Assembly (NCBI RefSeq): GCF_014647475.1
Contig: NZ_BMPG01000003.1
Coordinates: 124,001-188,000, forward strand
DNA length: 64,000 bases
Source: Halocalculus aciditolerans
Lineage (GTDB): Archaea; Halobacteriota; Halobacteria; Halobacteriales; Halobacteriaceae
Reading direction: 5' to 3'
Shown: positions 3,558 through 9,392 of the stretch, piece by piece
Layout of the letters: every line of letters begins with the position of its first letter
Position numbering within the stretch: the stretch's first letter is position 1
Notes under the pieces: generated by a model
Told to the model about the DNA's origin: nothing
The model's input: the letters and a program-made list of their open reading frames with translations, nothing else
Databases searched by the model: none
Program-made: the position numbers and the translations under genes

Positions 3558-3568
3558 CCACCACACGA

Positions 3569-3610
3569 ATCAGCCGCACGACGACTGAGATCAGCCGCAC
3601 GACGACTGAG
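3569..3610. repeat. Two-copy 21-bp tandem repeat
   Basis: The unit ATCAGCCGCACGACGACTGAG occurs twice in direct succession (3569-3589 and 3590-3610), just after the stop of the Lrp/AsnC gene. It lies at the left edge of the gene-free stretch (3558-4014) that also contains three origin-type motifs. No function can be assigned. Confidence 0.75.
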
Positions 3611-3667
3611 CCGTCTATCGGACCGACTCGGGCCGAAGGCTGAGCCGTCCACACGCGTCTCTCCGTA

Positions 3668-3686
3668 CACCACCGTGTCCGGAGTT
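3668..3686 (+). repeat. ORB-like origin motif, downstream side of orc1/cdc6, copy 1
   Basis: CACCACCGTGTCCGGAGTT. It shares the core GTCCG[G/C]AGT preceded by CACCRCCG with copies at 3822, 3921, 5694, 5773, 6282, 6343 and 6471. The clustering around an orc1/cdc6 gene suggests an origin-recognition box. Confidence 0.6.
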
Positions 3687-3821
3687 CGACGCGCCACGCG
3701 ACCCCACGCGGCGCTCCGCGCCGTCCGCTGTCCCCGCTGTCCCACCCGTGACCGCCCACAGGCGCGGCGAACGCCATCCGAGGACCAGTACCACAGCTAT
3801 CTACCGACCAGCACGACGGCG

Positions 3822-3843
3822 CACACCGCCGCGTCCGGAGTAA
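3822..3843 (+). repeat. ORB-like origin motif, downstream side, copy 2
   Basis: A CACACCGCCGCGTCCGGAGT core followed by AA. Same orientation as copy 1. It lies in the non-coding stretch downstream of orc1/cdc6. Confidence 0.6.
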
Positions 3844-3920
3844 AGTGCCGAAATCGGACTGCTTCCGGCTCGCCCCGAGCGTCTCGCTCCGTCACGTCGC
3901 TATAGTCTCGGCGGACGATC

Positions 3921-3943
3921 CACACCACCGCGTCCGGAGAAAC
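3921..3943 (+). repeat. ORB-like origin motif, downstream side, copy 3
   Basis: CACACCACCGCGTCCGGAG followed by AAAC. Same orientation as copies 1 and 2, about 70 bp past the stop codon of orc1/cdc6. Confidence 0.6.
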
Positions 3944-4014
3944 GCCGGAGGCGAACTGAAGAAGCCGACGAGACGAGCAACCCCCGTCGACGGCTCCGCG
4001 GAGTCGACGGCCGC

Positions 4015-5664
4015 TCAGTCGAACGACGAAATCGTCGCGTCCTCGTGGTCGCCCTCTCCGCTCCCGTCCTCTTCGAGACGAGCGTCCGGGTCGTCGCCGC
4101 TGCGCTCGTCGGCGTCGCCGGCGTCCGCCGCATCCACCGCGTCTGCCGCGTCCACCACGTCCGGAACGTCCGCAGCGGCGTCGTCGGAGCCGGCCCCGTT
4201 CCCGGAGTCCGCCACCGCTTCGGACGGCGTTTCAGCGTCGTTCGCCCGCGTCGCCGTCGCGTCAGGCGACTCCCCGGCCGGTGCACGAGGCGACGTCTCC
4301 GTCCGTTCGTCAGCCGGAGTGGCTGCCGCATCGGACGGCGTCTCCGTCCGTTCGTCGGCCGCAGCGGTCGGCTCCGATTCGTCGGCCGCGGTGGCGACGT
4401 CCGCGTGCGTGGCGTTCTCCGAACCGTCGGGCGTGTCGCTGATGACGGCTTCTTCGAGGGCGCGCTCGACGACGGACTCGTGGACGCCGACGAGTTCGAC
4501 GGTCTCGGAGAGCGCGCTCAACACCTGCTCCACGGGCATGTCGAGTTCGTACTCGCGGTAGGTGCCGCCGCGCCGCCCCTCGTTCCGCTCGGTGACGGAG
4601 ATGATGCCGAGCATCGCGAGTTCGCTCAGGTGGTCGCGCATCCGCCGCGGGACGAGCGGGTCGCGGTTCGCGAGCTCCGCAAAGCGCGTGTAGCGCGGGC
4701 GGACGTCCCGCGACCGGATGGGCGTCTCCCCCTCCAGCGCGTTCGTGACGAGCGCGTAGAGCACGAGGTGGCCGTGCTCGGTGAGGCCCCGAATGCCCTC
4801 CTCGATGCGGCCGCGTTCGAGCGCGGTGCGCCCCCGGTCGACGTGTTCTTCGGTGACGGTGGCGGTTTCGTCGTCGCGCGCCACGTCGCCGGCCTTCATC
4901 AGGAGGTCGATGGACTGCCGGGCGTCGCCGGCGTCCTTCGCGCCGTACGCCGCGCAGAGCGGGATGACGCCGGGTTCGAGGACGTCGTCGTGGAACGCCA
5001 CCGCCGCGCGCTGTTCGAGGATGGCCTTCAGGTCGGTCGCGTCGTACGCCGGGAAGTGAATCTCGTTCTCGCAGAGCGACGACTTCACTTTCGGCGAGAG
5101 GTCGTCGCGGAAGGAGAAGTCGTTCGAGATGCCGATGAGGCCGACCTGGGTCGACTCGAGCTTGCTGTTCGCGCGGGCGCGCGGGAGCTGGTAGAGGATG
5201 GAGTCGTCGCCGATGTTGTCGATCTCGTCGAGGACGATTAATACTGTGCCGCCGTGGGAGTCGAGGTCCTCCCAGAGCATCTCGTAGACCGTCGCGAGCG
5301 GGTAGCCCGTCGTCGAAATCTGGTTGTGTTCCGCGCGGAGTTCGTTCACGAGGTGGGTCGCGACCTGGTAGGAAGAGGAGAGCCCGTCGCAGTTGAGGAA
5401 GATGATGTCGAGGTCGACGTCGTCGTACTGCGCCGCGTCCTCCCGGAGGTGGTCGAGGAGGTACCGCGTCGCCGCCGTCTTCCCCACGCCGGTCTTCCCG
5501 TAGAGGAAGATGTTGTTCGGTTGCTCGGAGTTGATGACGGGCTGCAGCGCGCTCGTGTACGTCGAGAGTTCCTCGTCCCGGCCCACGAGCTCGCTCGGCT
5601 GGTAGTCCTCCCTGAGCGCGTCCCGGTCCCGATAGATATCGGTATCCCGCTCGAAGAGTCCCAT
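4015..5664 (-). CDS. orc1/cdc6: Origin recognition / replication initiator Orc1/Cdc6
   Basis: 549 aa from the ATG at 5664 (MGLFERDTDIYRDRDALRED, the standard family N-terminus; an in-frame ATG at 5691 is less likely). The AAA+ core has Walker A GKTGVGKT (56-63), Walker B VLIVLDEID (about 141-149) and a sensor-1 region GISNDF. A winged-helix DNA-binding domain occupies about 290-395. The protein binds origin boxes and loads the MCM helicase. From about residue 405 to the end there is an acidic, repetitive, disordered tail (DERTETPSDAA, VDAADAVDAADAGDAD), making it longer than the roughly 400 aa of a minimal Orc1/Cdc6. ORB-like motifs lie on both sides, consistent with a cognate origin. Confidence 0.95.
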   Translation of the reverse strand: MGLFERDTDIYRDRDALREDYQPSELVGRDEELSTYTSALQPVINSEQPNNIFLYGKTGVGKTAATRYLLDHLREDAAQYDDVDLDIIFLNCDGLSSSYQVATHLVNELRAEHNQISTTGYPLATVYEMLWEDLDSHGGTVLIVLDEIDNIGDDSILYQLPRARANSKLESTQVGLIGISNDFSFRDDLSPKVKSSLCENEIHFPAYDATDLKAILEQRAAVAFHDDVLEPGVIPLCAAYGAKDAGDARQSIDLLMKAGDVARDDETATVTEEHVDRGRTALERGRIEEGIRGLTEHGHLVLYALVTNALEGETPIRSRDVRPRYTRFAELANRDPLVPRRMRDHLSELAMLGIISVTERNEGRRGGTYREYELDMPVEQVLSALSETVELVGVHESVVERALEEAVISDTPDGSENATHADVATAADESEPTAAADERTETPSDAAATPADERTETSPRAPAGESPDATATRANDAETPSEAVADSGNGAGSDDAAADVPDVVDAADAVDAADAGDADERSGDDPDARLEEDGSGEGDHEDATISSFD

Positions 5665-5693
5665 GCCACCCTCACTCGCGGCGACCCTCATAA

Positions 5694-5742
5694 AACCACC
5701 GCGTCCGGAGCGTCCGCAGTGTCCGGAGCGTCCGCTGTTCCA
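5694..5742 (+). repeat. Compound ORB-like cluster next to orc1/cdc6 start
   Basis: It begins ACCACCGCGTCCGGAG and continues with three further spaced copies of the short core (CGTCCGCAGT, GTCCGGAGCG, TCCGCTGTTCC). The cluster ends just before a TATA-like ATATATAC (5746-5754), so initiator binding here could also repress the orc1/cdc6 promoter. Confidence 0.6.
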
Positions 5743-5772
5743 AAGATATATACGGGAGGTGCCGATGACCCT

Positions 5773-5795
5773 CCCCCCACTTTGTCCGGAGTAAC
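5773..5795 (+). repeat. ORB-like motif with C-rich flank
   Basis: CCCCCCACTTTGTCCGGAGT followed by AAC. The G/C run next to the core resembles the G-string seen beside many haloarchaeal ORBs. It borders the AT-richer tract on the left. Confidence 0.6.
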
Positions 5796-5819
5796 GAGGC
5801 TCCGAAGGAGGGGGTGGGA

Positions 5820-5945
5820 GGAAGAAGCTAACGAGCGGTTACTAGAAGCGACAGAGCTAAGTCAAAACCACCACAACCAAAACCGCACTAGAAGACTAAG
5901 GCTAAGAAGAGGAAACCTGTCTAGGCCTAGAGTAGCCGTATTTTC
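5820..5945. other. AT-richer tract, candidate duplex-unwinding element
   Basis: By eye this stretch is near half A+T in a region that otherwise runs about one third. It is strongly asymmetric: A-rich on the given strand (for example CAAAACCACCACAACCAAAA near 5865), with CTAG and CTAAG motifs. It sits between the left and right ORB-like clusters, where an unwinding element would be expected. Confidence 0.5.
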
Positions 5946-5950
5946 GTCTC

Positions 5951-5987
5951 TCAGTCAGCGAGTCAGTCAGAGTCAGTCAGTCGGTCA
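5951..5987. repeat. GTCA short tandem repeats in origin
   Basis: Repeated AGTCAG/GAGTCAGTCAG units follow the AT-richer tract. The run is short and imperfect; no function is assigned. Confidence 0.6.
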
Positions 5988-6281
5988 TTCGCCAGTCGTT
6001 CCTCTTCGCTTCCTCCTCGGTCTCGTCACGTTGTCTCGGCACTCGTCTCACCGCTCAACCTTCCCTCGCTGTTTGTCGACCGCCTCGGCCCTCTGGTCTG
6101 ACTGTGTCGGTCGTCTAGCCCGTCTGAGAGGCGCGCAGTAGCCGTTCGGTCGCGGACCCTTCTTCTCTTCCTCCTGTTCTCGTCGGTTCTCTCGCCGATC
6201 CGACGTCGACGTCCCCTCACCGCCCGCCGTTATCGGCAATAAATCCCGCATTTCTCTCCCCCCTCCCTCCTTCGCGCCCGT

Positions 6282-6303
6282 TTACTGCGGACACGGTGGT
6301 GTG
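6282..6303 (-). repeat. ORB-like motif, rdfA side, copy 1 (inverted)
   Basis: On the minus strand it reads CACACCACCGTGTCCGCAGT then AA. It forms an inverted pair with the plus-strand copy at 6308, separated by four bases. Confidence 0.65.
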
Positions 6304-6307
6304 AGTG

Positions 6308-6330
6308 TACACCTCCGTGTCCGCTGTTCC
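6308..6330 (+). repeat. ORB-like motif, rdfA side, copy 2
   Basis: TACACCTCCGTGTCCGCTGT followed by TCC. It has the TGTTCC ending also seen at 5742 and 6517, a variant of the AGTAA ending. Confidence 0.6.
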
Positions 6331-6342
6331 GGGAAATCCGAA

Positions 6343-6365
6343 GAACTGCGGACGCGGTGGTGTGT
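6343..6365 (-). repeat. ORB-like motif, rdfA side, copy 3 (inverted)
   Basis: The minus strand reads ACACACCACCGCGTCCGCAG then TTC. Confidence 0.65.
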
Positions 6366-6470
6366 CCAAACGGTCCGCTCTCCATTTCTATCGACCGCGA
6401 AACGCGGCGATTTCGGACTAGAAGCCACCTAAACGCCTTCCTCGCGCCCACATCTCGGCCACGTCCCACC

Positions 6471-6494
6471 GGACACCACCGTGTCCGCAGTAAC
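6471..6494 (+). repeat. ORB-like motif, rdfA side, copy 4
   Basis: GGACACCACCGTGTCCGCAG then TAAC. It also contains a perfect dyad, GGACAC-CACC-GTGTCC. Confidence 0.65.
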
Positions 6495-6517
6495 CGACAC
6501 CGGTCTGTCCGCTGTTC
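6495..6517 (+). repeat. ORB-like motif, rdfA side, copy 5
   Basis: CGACACCGGTCTGTCCGCTG then TTC, immediately following copy 4; the weakest match of the set. Confidence 0.5.
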
Positions 6518-6652
6518 CGCGGTTCCCGTCGCCTCCGTCGCCCCTCGGTTTCTCTTCGGACGCCTCTTCCTCCGCGGGGACCGCGATTGCTTTACGGCCG
6601 TATGCGCGTAACGAAGCGAAGGTTTTTGCGCCCCCCTCTCGAACGACGTGGT

Positions 6653-7412: not shown

Positions 7413-9392
7413 ATGGCGACCTCTGAGCTCTCGTCCCCCTTGCGCGTCGCGGCCTCGAACGTCGGCGGTATCGACCAGACGGACGTCGAATTCCGTCCCG
7501 GAATCACCGTCCTCGTCGGCCGGAACGCCACGAACCGGACGTCGTTCCTGCAGGCGATTATGGCCGGACTCGGCAGCCGGAACGTCTCTCTCAAAGGCGA
7601 CGCCGACGAAGGCCGCGTCGAGCTCACCGTCGACGGAGAGACCTACACGCGGACGCTCACGCGGACCGCGAACGGCGTCCAGTTCGGCGGCGACCCCTAC
7701 CTCGACGACCCCGAAGTCGCAGACCTCTTCTCCTTCCTCTTAGAGGATAACGAGGCGCGGCAGGCTATCGCGCGCGGCGACGACCTCCGCGACCTCATCA
7801 TGCGACCCGTCGACACCGCCGAAATCAAGGCGAACATCAACCTCCTCGAACGCGAGCGAGAATCCGTCGACGAGCAGTTAGCGGATATCGAGTCGGCGAA
7901 GAGCCGGCTCCCCGACCTGGAGCGCCGCCGCGCGGACCTCGAAGACGAAATCTCCGAAGTACGCGAGGACCTCGAAGCGGCACAGGAAGCGCTCGAAGCA
8001 GCCGACGCGTCCGTCGAGGAGACCCGAGAGGAAGAGGACGAACTCGACGAGGCGCTCGACGCGCTCAGCGAGACGCGCGCGGAACTCGACGAAGTCCGCG
8101 ACCGCATCGAGACGCAGCGCGAGAGCCTCGCGTCCGTCCGGGAGGAACGCGCGGAACTCGACGCGCCCGAGGAGGGCGACGCGCTCGACGACATCGAGTC
8201 CGTCGAGGCCGAAATCGACGACCTCCGCGAGCGAAAGCGGACGCTCGACAGCGCCGTGAACCGCCTGCAGACGCTCGTGCAGGTCACCCAGCAGCTCGTC
8301 TCCGGCGAGGAGACCGCCCTCTTGGACATCCTCCAGTCGGCCGGCGACGCCGGCGGGCACGTCGCCGGAAGCGTCGACGCGGACGGCGACAGCGAGAACG
8401 GTGACGGCGGCGTCGAGGACGTCACGGCCGGTCTCCTCCCGGACGAGGAGGTAGAGGCGGTGACGTGCTGGACGTGCGGGAGCGAGGTCGAGCGCGGCGA
8501 GCTCGAGGAGTCGCTCGACCGACTCCGGACGGTGCTCCAGGAGACGCGAACGGAGCGCGCCGACCTCGACGAGGAGCTCTCCGAGCGTCAGGACGAACTC
8601 TCCGACCTCCGCGACGAGCGCCGGGAGCGCGAACGCCAGCGCGAACGCCGCCGCCGGCTCGCCGAGGAGGTCGAGGACCGCGAAGCCGCGATTGCCGACC
8701 TCCAGGAGCGCCGCGGAGAGCTCGAATCGGAGATCGAACGCCTCGAATCCGAGGTGGACGCGCTCGAATCCGACGTCTACAGCGACCTCCTCGACCGCCA
8801 CCGCGAGGCGAACGAACTGGAGTTCGAACTCGGCCGCCTCCGCGACGACCTCGACGACGTCGAAGCGGAGATCTCGGAGGTCGAGGAACGCGCGGACCGC
8901 GAGGACGACCTCCGAGAGCGCCGCGAGGAGATCACCGACGAGCTGACCGAACTCCGCACGCGCATCGACCACCTCGAAGAGACCGCCGTGGACGCGTTCA
9001 ACGAGCACATGGCGGAACTCCTCGGCGTGCTCGGCTACGACAACCTCGAGCGCGTCTGGATCGAACGCACCGGCGCGACGAACACGGAGTTCGCGCTCCA
9101 CGTCGTCCGCAGCACGGACGACGGCGTCGCCTACGAGGACACCGTCGACCACCTCTCCGAATCCGAGCGGAACGTCGTCGGCCTCGTCTTCGCGCTCGCC
9201 GGCTACCTCGTCCACGACGTCCACGAGACCGTCCCCGTGATGCTCCTCGACAGCCTCGAAGCCATCGACTCCGACCGCATCGCCGCCGTCGTCGAATACT
9301 TCGAGGCCTACGCCCCCTCCCTCGTCGTCGCCCTCCTCCCCGAAGACGCCCGGGCGGTCGACGACGACTACGAACGCATCACCGACATCTAA
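7413..9392 (+). CDS. Archaea-specific SMC-related ATPase
   Basis: 659 aa. The N-terminal ATPase half carries a P-loop-like GRNATNRTS at 36-44. Two long coiled coils (about 130-290 and 365-540, rich in Glu, Arg and Leu heptads) flank a hinge with CWTCG near residues 352-356, similar to a Rad50-type zinc hook. The C-terminal half has an ABC-signature-like LSESERNVVGLVFALAG and a Walker-B-like VPVMLLDSLEAIDS. Such proteins dimerise through the head and hinge to hold DNA. The head motifs diverge from true SMC and Rad50 (Asp-Ser in place of Asp-Glu in Walker B). The pairing with rdfA supports the archaeal SMC-related family. Confidence 0.85.
   Translation: MATSELSSPLRVAASNVGGIDQTDVEFRPGITVLVGRNATNRTSFLQAIMAGLGSRNVSLKGDADEGRVELTVDGETYTRTLTRTANGVQFGGDPYLDDPEVADLFSFLLEDNEARQAIARGDDLRDLIMRPVDTAEIKANINLLERERESVDEQLADIESAKSRLPDLERRRADLEDEISEVREDLEAAQEALEAADASVEETREEEDELDEALDALSETRAELDEVRDRIETQRESLASVREERAELDAPEEGDALDDIESVEAEIDDLRERKRTLDSAVNRLQTLVQVTQQLVSGEETALLDILQSAGDAGGHVAGSVDADGDSENGDGGVEDVTAGLLPDEEVEAVTCWTCGSEVERGELEESLDRLRTVLQETRTERADLDEELSERQDELSDLRDERRERERQRERRRRLAEEVEDREAAIADLQERRGELESEIERLESEVDALESDVYSDLLDRHREANELEFELGRLRDDLDDVEAEISEVEERADREDDLRERREEITDELTELRTRIDHLEETAVDAFNEHMAELLGVLGYDNLERVWIERTGATNTEFALHVVRSTDDGVAYEDTVDHLSESERNVVGLVFALAGYLVHDVHETVPVMLLDSLEAIDSDRIAAVVEYFEAYAPSLVVALLPEDARAVDDDYERITDI

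Follow-up and report, generated by a model that had tools for sequence, protein, structure and literature searches.

A likely replication origin of the oriP-cdc6K type on a large secondary replicon of Halocalculus aciditolerans

Introduction

The oriP-cdc6K origin of Haloarcula hispanica has autonomously replicating sequence (ARS) activity and replicates a plasmid autonomously (PMC3528665); it cannot be deleted and, by marker frequency, is the sole origin of pHH400 (PMC3936714). Here we describe a related locus in Halocalculus aciditolerans, found in a stretch of 64,000 nucleotides (hereafter, the window) that comprises bases 124001-188000 of contig C3 (533,175 bp) in a genome of 3.38 Mb and 27 contigs. 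At this locus, an orc1/cdc6 initiator gene (hereafter, orc) is accompanied on both sides by repeated origin recognition boxes (ORBs). We propose that the locus is very probably the Orc1/Cdc6-dependent origin of C3, a large secondary replicon, and that it is of the same type as oriP-cdc6K. A replication origin at orc had been suggested by an earlier reading of the DNA letters alone (the sequence-only reading), and this suggestion is now well supported, both by the full Orc1/Cdc6 domains of the gene product and by the relationship to oriP-cdc6K, which carries the same boxes.

Several features of haloarchaeal origins bear on the comparison. Wu et al. 2012 (PMC3528665) linked initiator family to ORB in general and listed origins in which ORBs flank orc/cdc6 on either side, an arrangement that is a reported haloarchaeal feature (PMC3528665, PMC3936714). 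The oriC2-cdc6E origin of H. hispanica likewise has ORBs upstream and downstream of its initiator gene. Its downstream group, oriC2D, comprises 11 ORBs in 722 bp; it shows no activity as an origin, is indispensable as long as the origin is there, and reduces the copy number of a plasmid, with an effect graded by the number of boxes. The probable cause is titration of Cdc6E, a strategy that, in the authors' view, should be widespread. In oriC1 of the same species a G-rich inverted repeat acts as an enhancer, and cdc6A (of oriC1) and cdc6K are separate genes (PMC3936714).

Results

The locus resembles oriP-cdc6K in its boxes and its initiator

The Orc protein encoded in the window has AAA+ and winged-helix domains, and its closest matches among solved structures are archaeal Orc1 proteins (PDB 2qby_A and 2v1u). 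It is 72-73% identical to H. hispanica Cdc6K over ~410-414 residues, which is below the threshold of at least 80% that Wu et al. 2012 applied to initiator families. We identify the pHH400 gene in this comparison as cdc6K because it is the only orc/cdc6 gene listed for pHH400 in Table 1 of the paper. Both oriP-cdc6K and the cdc6k locus of H. marismortui (pNG700) are like the window locus in their core, TGTCCGC[AT]GT, in an inverted G-string core pair, in a compound box of 9-bp tandem repeats before orc, and in boxes downstream of the gene. The upstream flank in H. hispanica contains ACCCTCCCACCCCACTATGTCCGCAGTAACTA and eight further cores, and in the window, as in oriP-cdc6K, the compound box lies between a TATA element and the initiator ATG. 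Compared with these two loci, the window locus differs in that its core is longer, its tract is only weakly AT-rich, and its distal core box is without a G-string; the downstream boxes are more numerous, and the initiator ends in a long acidic tail. Because the compared set includes oriP-cdc6K, the window locus appears to be a new member of an experimentally backed origin type, and the comparison with a proven origin places the likely origin of C3 to within ~1 kb (Table 1).

The archaeal oriC1 ORB (Sulfolobus, Halobacterium, Haloarcula) has in common with the window a dyad-like core with a G-string and an inverted pair of boxes around an AT-rich region. The window differs in its core (..GGACA.. 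rather than ..GGAAAC..), in having more boxes, and in its compound promoter box, while its internal G-rich inverted repeat is like that of H. hispanica oriC1. The locus does not have the GGAAAC core, its own reading CGGACA, and the initiator is probably not that of oriC1: its best match on the H. hispanica plasmids is Cdc6K, which has the same box. The sequence-only reading had called the core unlike the textbook ORB, which holds for its letters but not for the kind of element. When TTACTCCGGACAAAGTGGGGGGAGGG from the window is placed beside TAACAGCGGAAACAGTGGGGTGGGGGGG from Wu et al., the haloarchaeal plan of G-string plus dyad is seen to be kept, and the box is a variant of the haloarchaeal ORB.

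In the working that we propose, Orc from the adjacent gene would bind the two inverted core boxes with the aid of the inner G-rich inverted repeat, and MCM would be loaded as the intervening AT-richer tract melts. The same Orc may repress orc by occupying the compound box, which covers the predicted start of orc transcription. Free Orc would be retained by the boxes downstream of the gene, and possibly also by the outer boxes upstream, so that firing is limited, as at H. hispanica oriC2D.

Table 1. Features of the predicted origin locus (window coordinates)
Feature	Position	Strand	Evidence
Downstream box cluster: ORBs 3668-3685, 3824-3841, 3923-3940 and weak core 3723-3731; without G-string	3668-3940	+	sequence, box scan
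orc1/cdc6 initiator gene (AAA+ ATPase, lid, winged helix)	4015-5664	-	Pfam Cdc6_lid, Cdc6_C, AAA_22
Compound box: four GTCCG cores and conserved CACCACC..TTTTAT flank; probable autorepression operator (predicted)	5690-5740	-	sequence, orthologs
TATA-like promoter element of orc (GTATATATC when read in the direction of orc)	5744-5752	-	sequence
Proximal core ORB with G-string (CCCTCCCCCCACTTTGTCCGGAGT), next to orc	5769-5792	+	aligns with proximal core ORB of Halarchaeum orthologs
Left arm of internal G-rich inverted repeat (CGAAGGAGGGGGTGGGAGGAAG)	5803-5824	+	sequence; pairs with 6254-6274
AT-richer tract, candidate duplex unwinding element	5830-5960	.	GC computed
Right arm of internal G-rich inverted repeat	6254-6274	-	sequence
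Distal core ORB, inverted relative to proximal, without extended G-string	6284-6301	-	box scan, ortholog comparison
Outer upstream ORBs	6310-6327, 6345-6362, 6474-6491, core 6507-6515	+, -, +, +	box scan

The boxes are nearly confined to the locus

The motifs that the sequence-only reading had seen clustered around the initiator are all present. Three lie downstream of orc in one orientation, accompanied by a further weak core; a compound cluster stands at the orc start; and five boxes of mixed orientation occupy 6284-6515, on the far side of the AT-richer tract. The core GTCCG[GC][AT]G[TA] occurs 8 times in 5692-6652 (mean 0.14 and maximum 2 in 1000 simulations). In 3558-4014 there are 4 occurrences, where simulation gives a mean of 0.07 and a maximum of 2. 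The genome-wide search that the same reading had proposed found no scatter of the motif: all 6 exact matches to the 18-mer CACCNCCGNGTCCGSWGT in the 3.38 Mb are at this locus. Allowing one mismatch adds 1 match at the locus, 2 elsewhere on C3, and 0 on the other contigs. The two off-locus boxes (C3 240189-240206 and 376764-376781) are possibly remote initiator sites, or due to chance; the first is intergenic, upstream of a gene for an MFS-like transporter.

Simulation, the genome scan and conservation rule out chance repeats. A motif common to the other origins of the genome is also ruled out, as the strict form was not found beside eight other orc loci, and one private to this genome is excluded by the presence of the same box at orthologous loci in many haloarchaea. 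A literature search on the box letters gave, among the matches listed, only titles that appear unrelated.

Layout and downstream boxes are conserved across an origin family

We compared 28 loci: 19 named loci from other haloarchaea, 8 plasmid or megaplasmid loci, and the window. The initiator has its nearest orthologs in Halarchaeum; the close one from Halarchaeum sp. CBA1220 is encoded on a circular plasmid of 603 kb. The upstream layout is common to all 28 loci. One box, nearly always with a G-string, lies ~90-160 bp before the start codon, and a second box faces it from further out; there are usually several outer boxes without G-strings, and the compound box stands right before orc. Clear downstream boxes were found in 27 of the 28, the remaining locus (Halovenus aranensis, close to a contig end) having only a weak downstream match. 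Boxes on both sides of the gene had been thought unusual in the sequence-only reading, an impression that does not survive the published examples cited above or the constancy of the arrangement in this family. Within this haloarchaeal family of origins, most of which lie on secondary replicons, the two-sided layout is instead standard.

As at oriC2D, a group of ORBs directly follows the initiator gene, here with three clear boxes as against 11, and our best guess is that these titrate the initiator as oriC2D probably does. They could instead be inert relics or a spare half-origin, since their number (1-5) and orientation vary between species. We consider this unlikely: the retention of downstream boxes at no fewer than 27 of the 28 loci, and in sister families with the matching altered core, argues for selection, and oriC2D itself, without origin activity, is nevertheless a required negative regulator.

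The core has an inverted box pair and may be weakened

The inverted core pair flanks a GC minimum of 0.46 (at 5851-5950, against ~0.62 around it), so that the AT-richer tract is a mild one. The haloarchaeal G-string found at ORB ends is present on the proximal core box, the sole G-string form of the box in the genome, and not on the distal one. The distal box closely resembles its counterpart at the Haloferax mediterranei ortholog, and the G-rich inverted arms are kept in the window, with G-rich tracts present in orthologs too. The stretched core also contains short AGTC repeats (CAGTCAGTCAGAGTCAGTCAGTCGGTC, 5945-6000), near the position of the distal G-string box in relatives, which look like an expansion or a replacement.

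Replicon-scale composition gives weak support to an origin at this place. The detrended G-C skew of C3 is lowest at 369 kb and broadly high from 20 to 130 kb, with a break near 80 kb. With half-replicon windows, a reading that assumes C3 to be a nearly complete circle, the strongest switch is at 119.5 kb, ~10 kb from the predicted origin (~130 kb), and the opposite extreme is at 380 kb. With windows of 20-100 kb there is nothing special at the locus. Local skew has no sharp inflection of the kind looked for by the sequence-only reading.

Several of these points weigh against assigning the origin of C3 to this locus. The distal core box lacks the G-string seen in most relatives, the core pair is spaced ~500 bp apart as against ~190-320 bp in relatives, the skew is supportive on the half-replicon scale only and with circularity assumed, and a second orc gene far away on C3 (444170-445150) could bring another origin. 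Because of the distal box and the wide spacing, the window origin may be weaker than those of its relatives. Taken further, the same points would suggest a dormant or weakened origin that fires rarely, with C3 replicating from elsewhere; H. mediterranei does have dormant origins with inverted ORBs, one of them on pHM500. However, the G-string of the distal box is weak in the H. mediterranei and CBA1220 orthologs as well, all other elements in the window are intact, no family boxes were found around the second orc on C3, and the half-replicon skew switch falls within ~10 kb of the locus. A dormant origin is therefore improbable in our view, and we favor an active origin of C3 at this locus. The second orc lies in a low-GC block (C3 430-470 kb, GC ~0.53), which suggests an integrated element.

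A compound box overlies the predicted orc transcription start

The four GTCCG cores of the compound box are spaced at exact 9-bp steps (5703, 5712, 5721 and 5730). The start of orc is taken at an ATG conserved in the family (5664), as orthologs share the same methionine; a further in-frame ATG lies upstream at 5691, from which the open reading frame would span 4015-5691 (-). In most orthologs, too, a TATA-like element is just upstream of the compound box, which places the predicted transcription start inside the box. The compound box is conserved at the same place in orthologs and is degenerate in Natribaculum. Searching 391 haloarchaeal genomes for CGGACNCNSCGGACNNGGTGGTTTTAT with at most one mismatch gave 77 sites in 75 genomes, and 0 in a reversed control. 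An orc gene adjoins every one of the 30 sites that were opened, and in all 28 that could be measured the site lies 25-37 bp before the orc start. At one of the 30 (C1 ~831902 of another genome) the initiator is only 47% identical, a nearby box reads GTCCGCATAA, and the compound box is nearly the same, so that this box extends somewhat beyond the family.

The position of the compound box suggests that it is probably an autorepression operator for orc. Overlap with the predicted transcription start across the family could also mean that the boxes serve chiefly to control transcription of orc, and possibly of the divergent rdfA gene, with no origin at all. We regard this as highly improbable, because an inverted core pair on either side of an AT-richer tract is superfluous for gene control, origin function is proven for the H. 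hispanica relative (PMC3936714), and rdfA is absent beside most orthologs. The locus is mostly ordinary, as the origin type and the boxes on both sides are already known; its one less familiar part is the well-conserved compound box at the initiator promoter, a candidate control element. We found no earlier account of such a box over an initiator transcription start in a search of open literature without supplements, and an earlier description may exist; PMC3936714 mentions autoregulation for DnaA. From the compound box comes a precise prediction that is easy to test: the gene for an initiator of archaeal replication would be repressed by its own product.

Box cores co-vary with initiator families

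Orthologs at least ~70% identical to the window Orc have the core TGTCCG[GC][AT]GT, and sister initiators, 55-62% identical, have altered cores: TTTCCGCTGTT in Halorussus and Haladaptatus, GTGTCCAGTGT in Haloterrigena KLK7, TGTCGAGTGTT in Halorubrum lacusprofundi and TTCCGCTGTTA in Haloarcula marina. The downstream boxes of the sister families carry the matching altered core, and in Haloterrigena KLK7 and Haloarcula marina so does the tandem promoter box. These results support the view that initiator and box behave as a specificity pair. They refine a known rule, since Wu et al. reported the linkage of initiator family and ORB, and sister families whose cores differ by one or a few bases would provide a natural series for studying origin choice by Orc1/Cdc6. 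That the initiator and motif form their own specificity class, as the sequence-only reading had supposed, is borne out as far as the pairing goes; the class is not private to this genome and includes H. hispanica oriP-cdc6K.

The family differs from six sister initiators at seven residues, of which four fall in the winged-helix region; this is suggestive, but the sequences are too few for specificity determinants to be named. A tree that includes the other Orc proteins of the genome has very long branches and offers no proof of monophyly. The initiators that share the box are joined through intermediates, and their monophyly is not firmly resolved with the long paralogs included.

In Escherichia coli, DnaA boxes lie in the DnaA promoter and datA takes up the initiator. 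The window has a comparable arrangement, with initiator boxes in the promoter of the initiator gene and a separate cluster that would absorb initiator. This is a functional analogy without homology, and for the archaeal locus we infer the autoregulation. Tentatively, and with somewhat less than even confidence, we suggest that autorepression through the compound box and downstream titration together form a plasmid-like copy-number circuit on a haloarchaeal family of secondary-replicon origins, in which the specificities of initiator and boxes switch together between sister families.

Initiator tail and neighboring genes

The C-terminal tail of Orc (encoded by 4015-4460) consists of ~150 acidic, Ala/Asp/Thr-rich residues, and most orthologs have none or a much shorter one. 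Directly beside the predicted origin and divergent to orc are rdfA (from 6653), present in a single copy in the genome, and an SMC-like gene of the sph3 type (7413-9392). RdfA is a rod-shape factor in Haloferax volcanii. These neighbors were not found at most of the other family loci compared. The rdfA and SMC-like pair recurs close to the orthologous origin of Halogeometricum limi and of H. pallidum, and Natrinema sp. SYSU A 869 has an SMC-related gene in the vicinity of its own.

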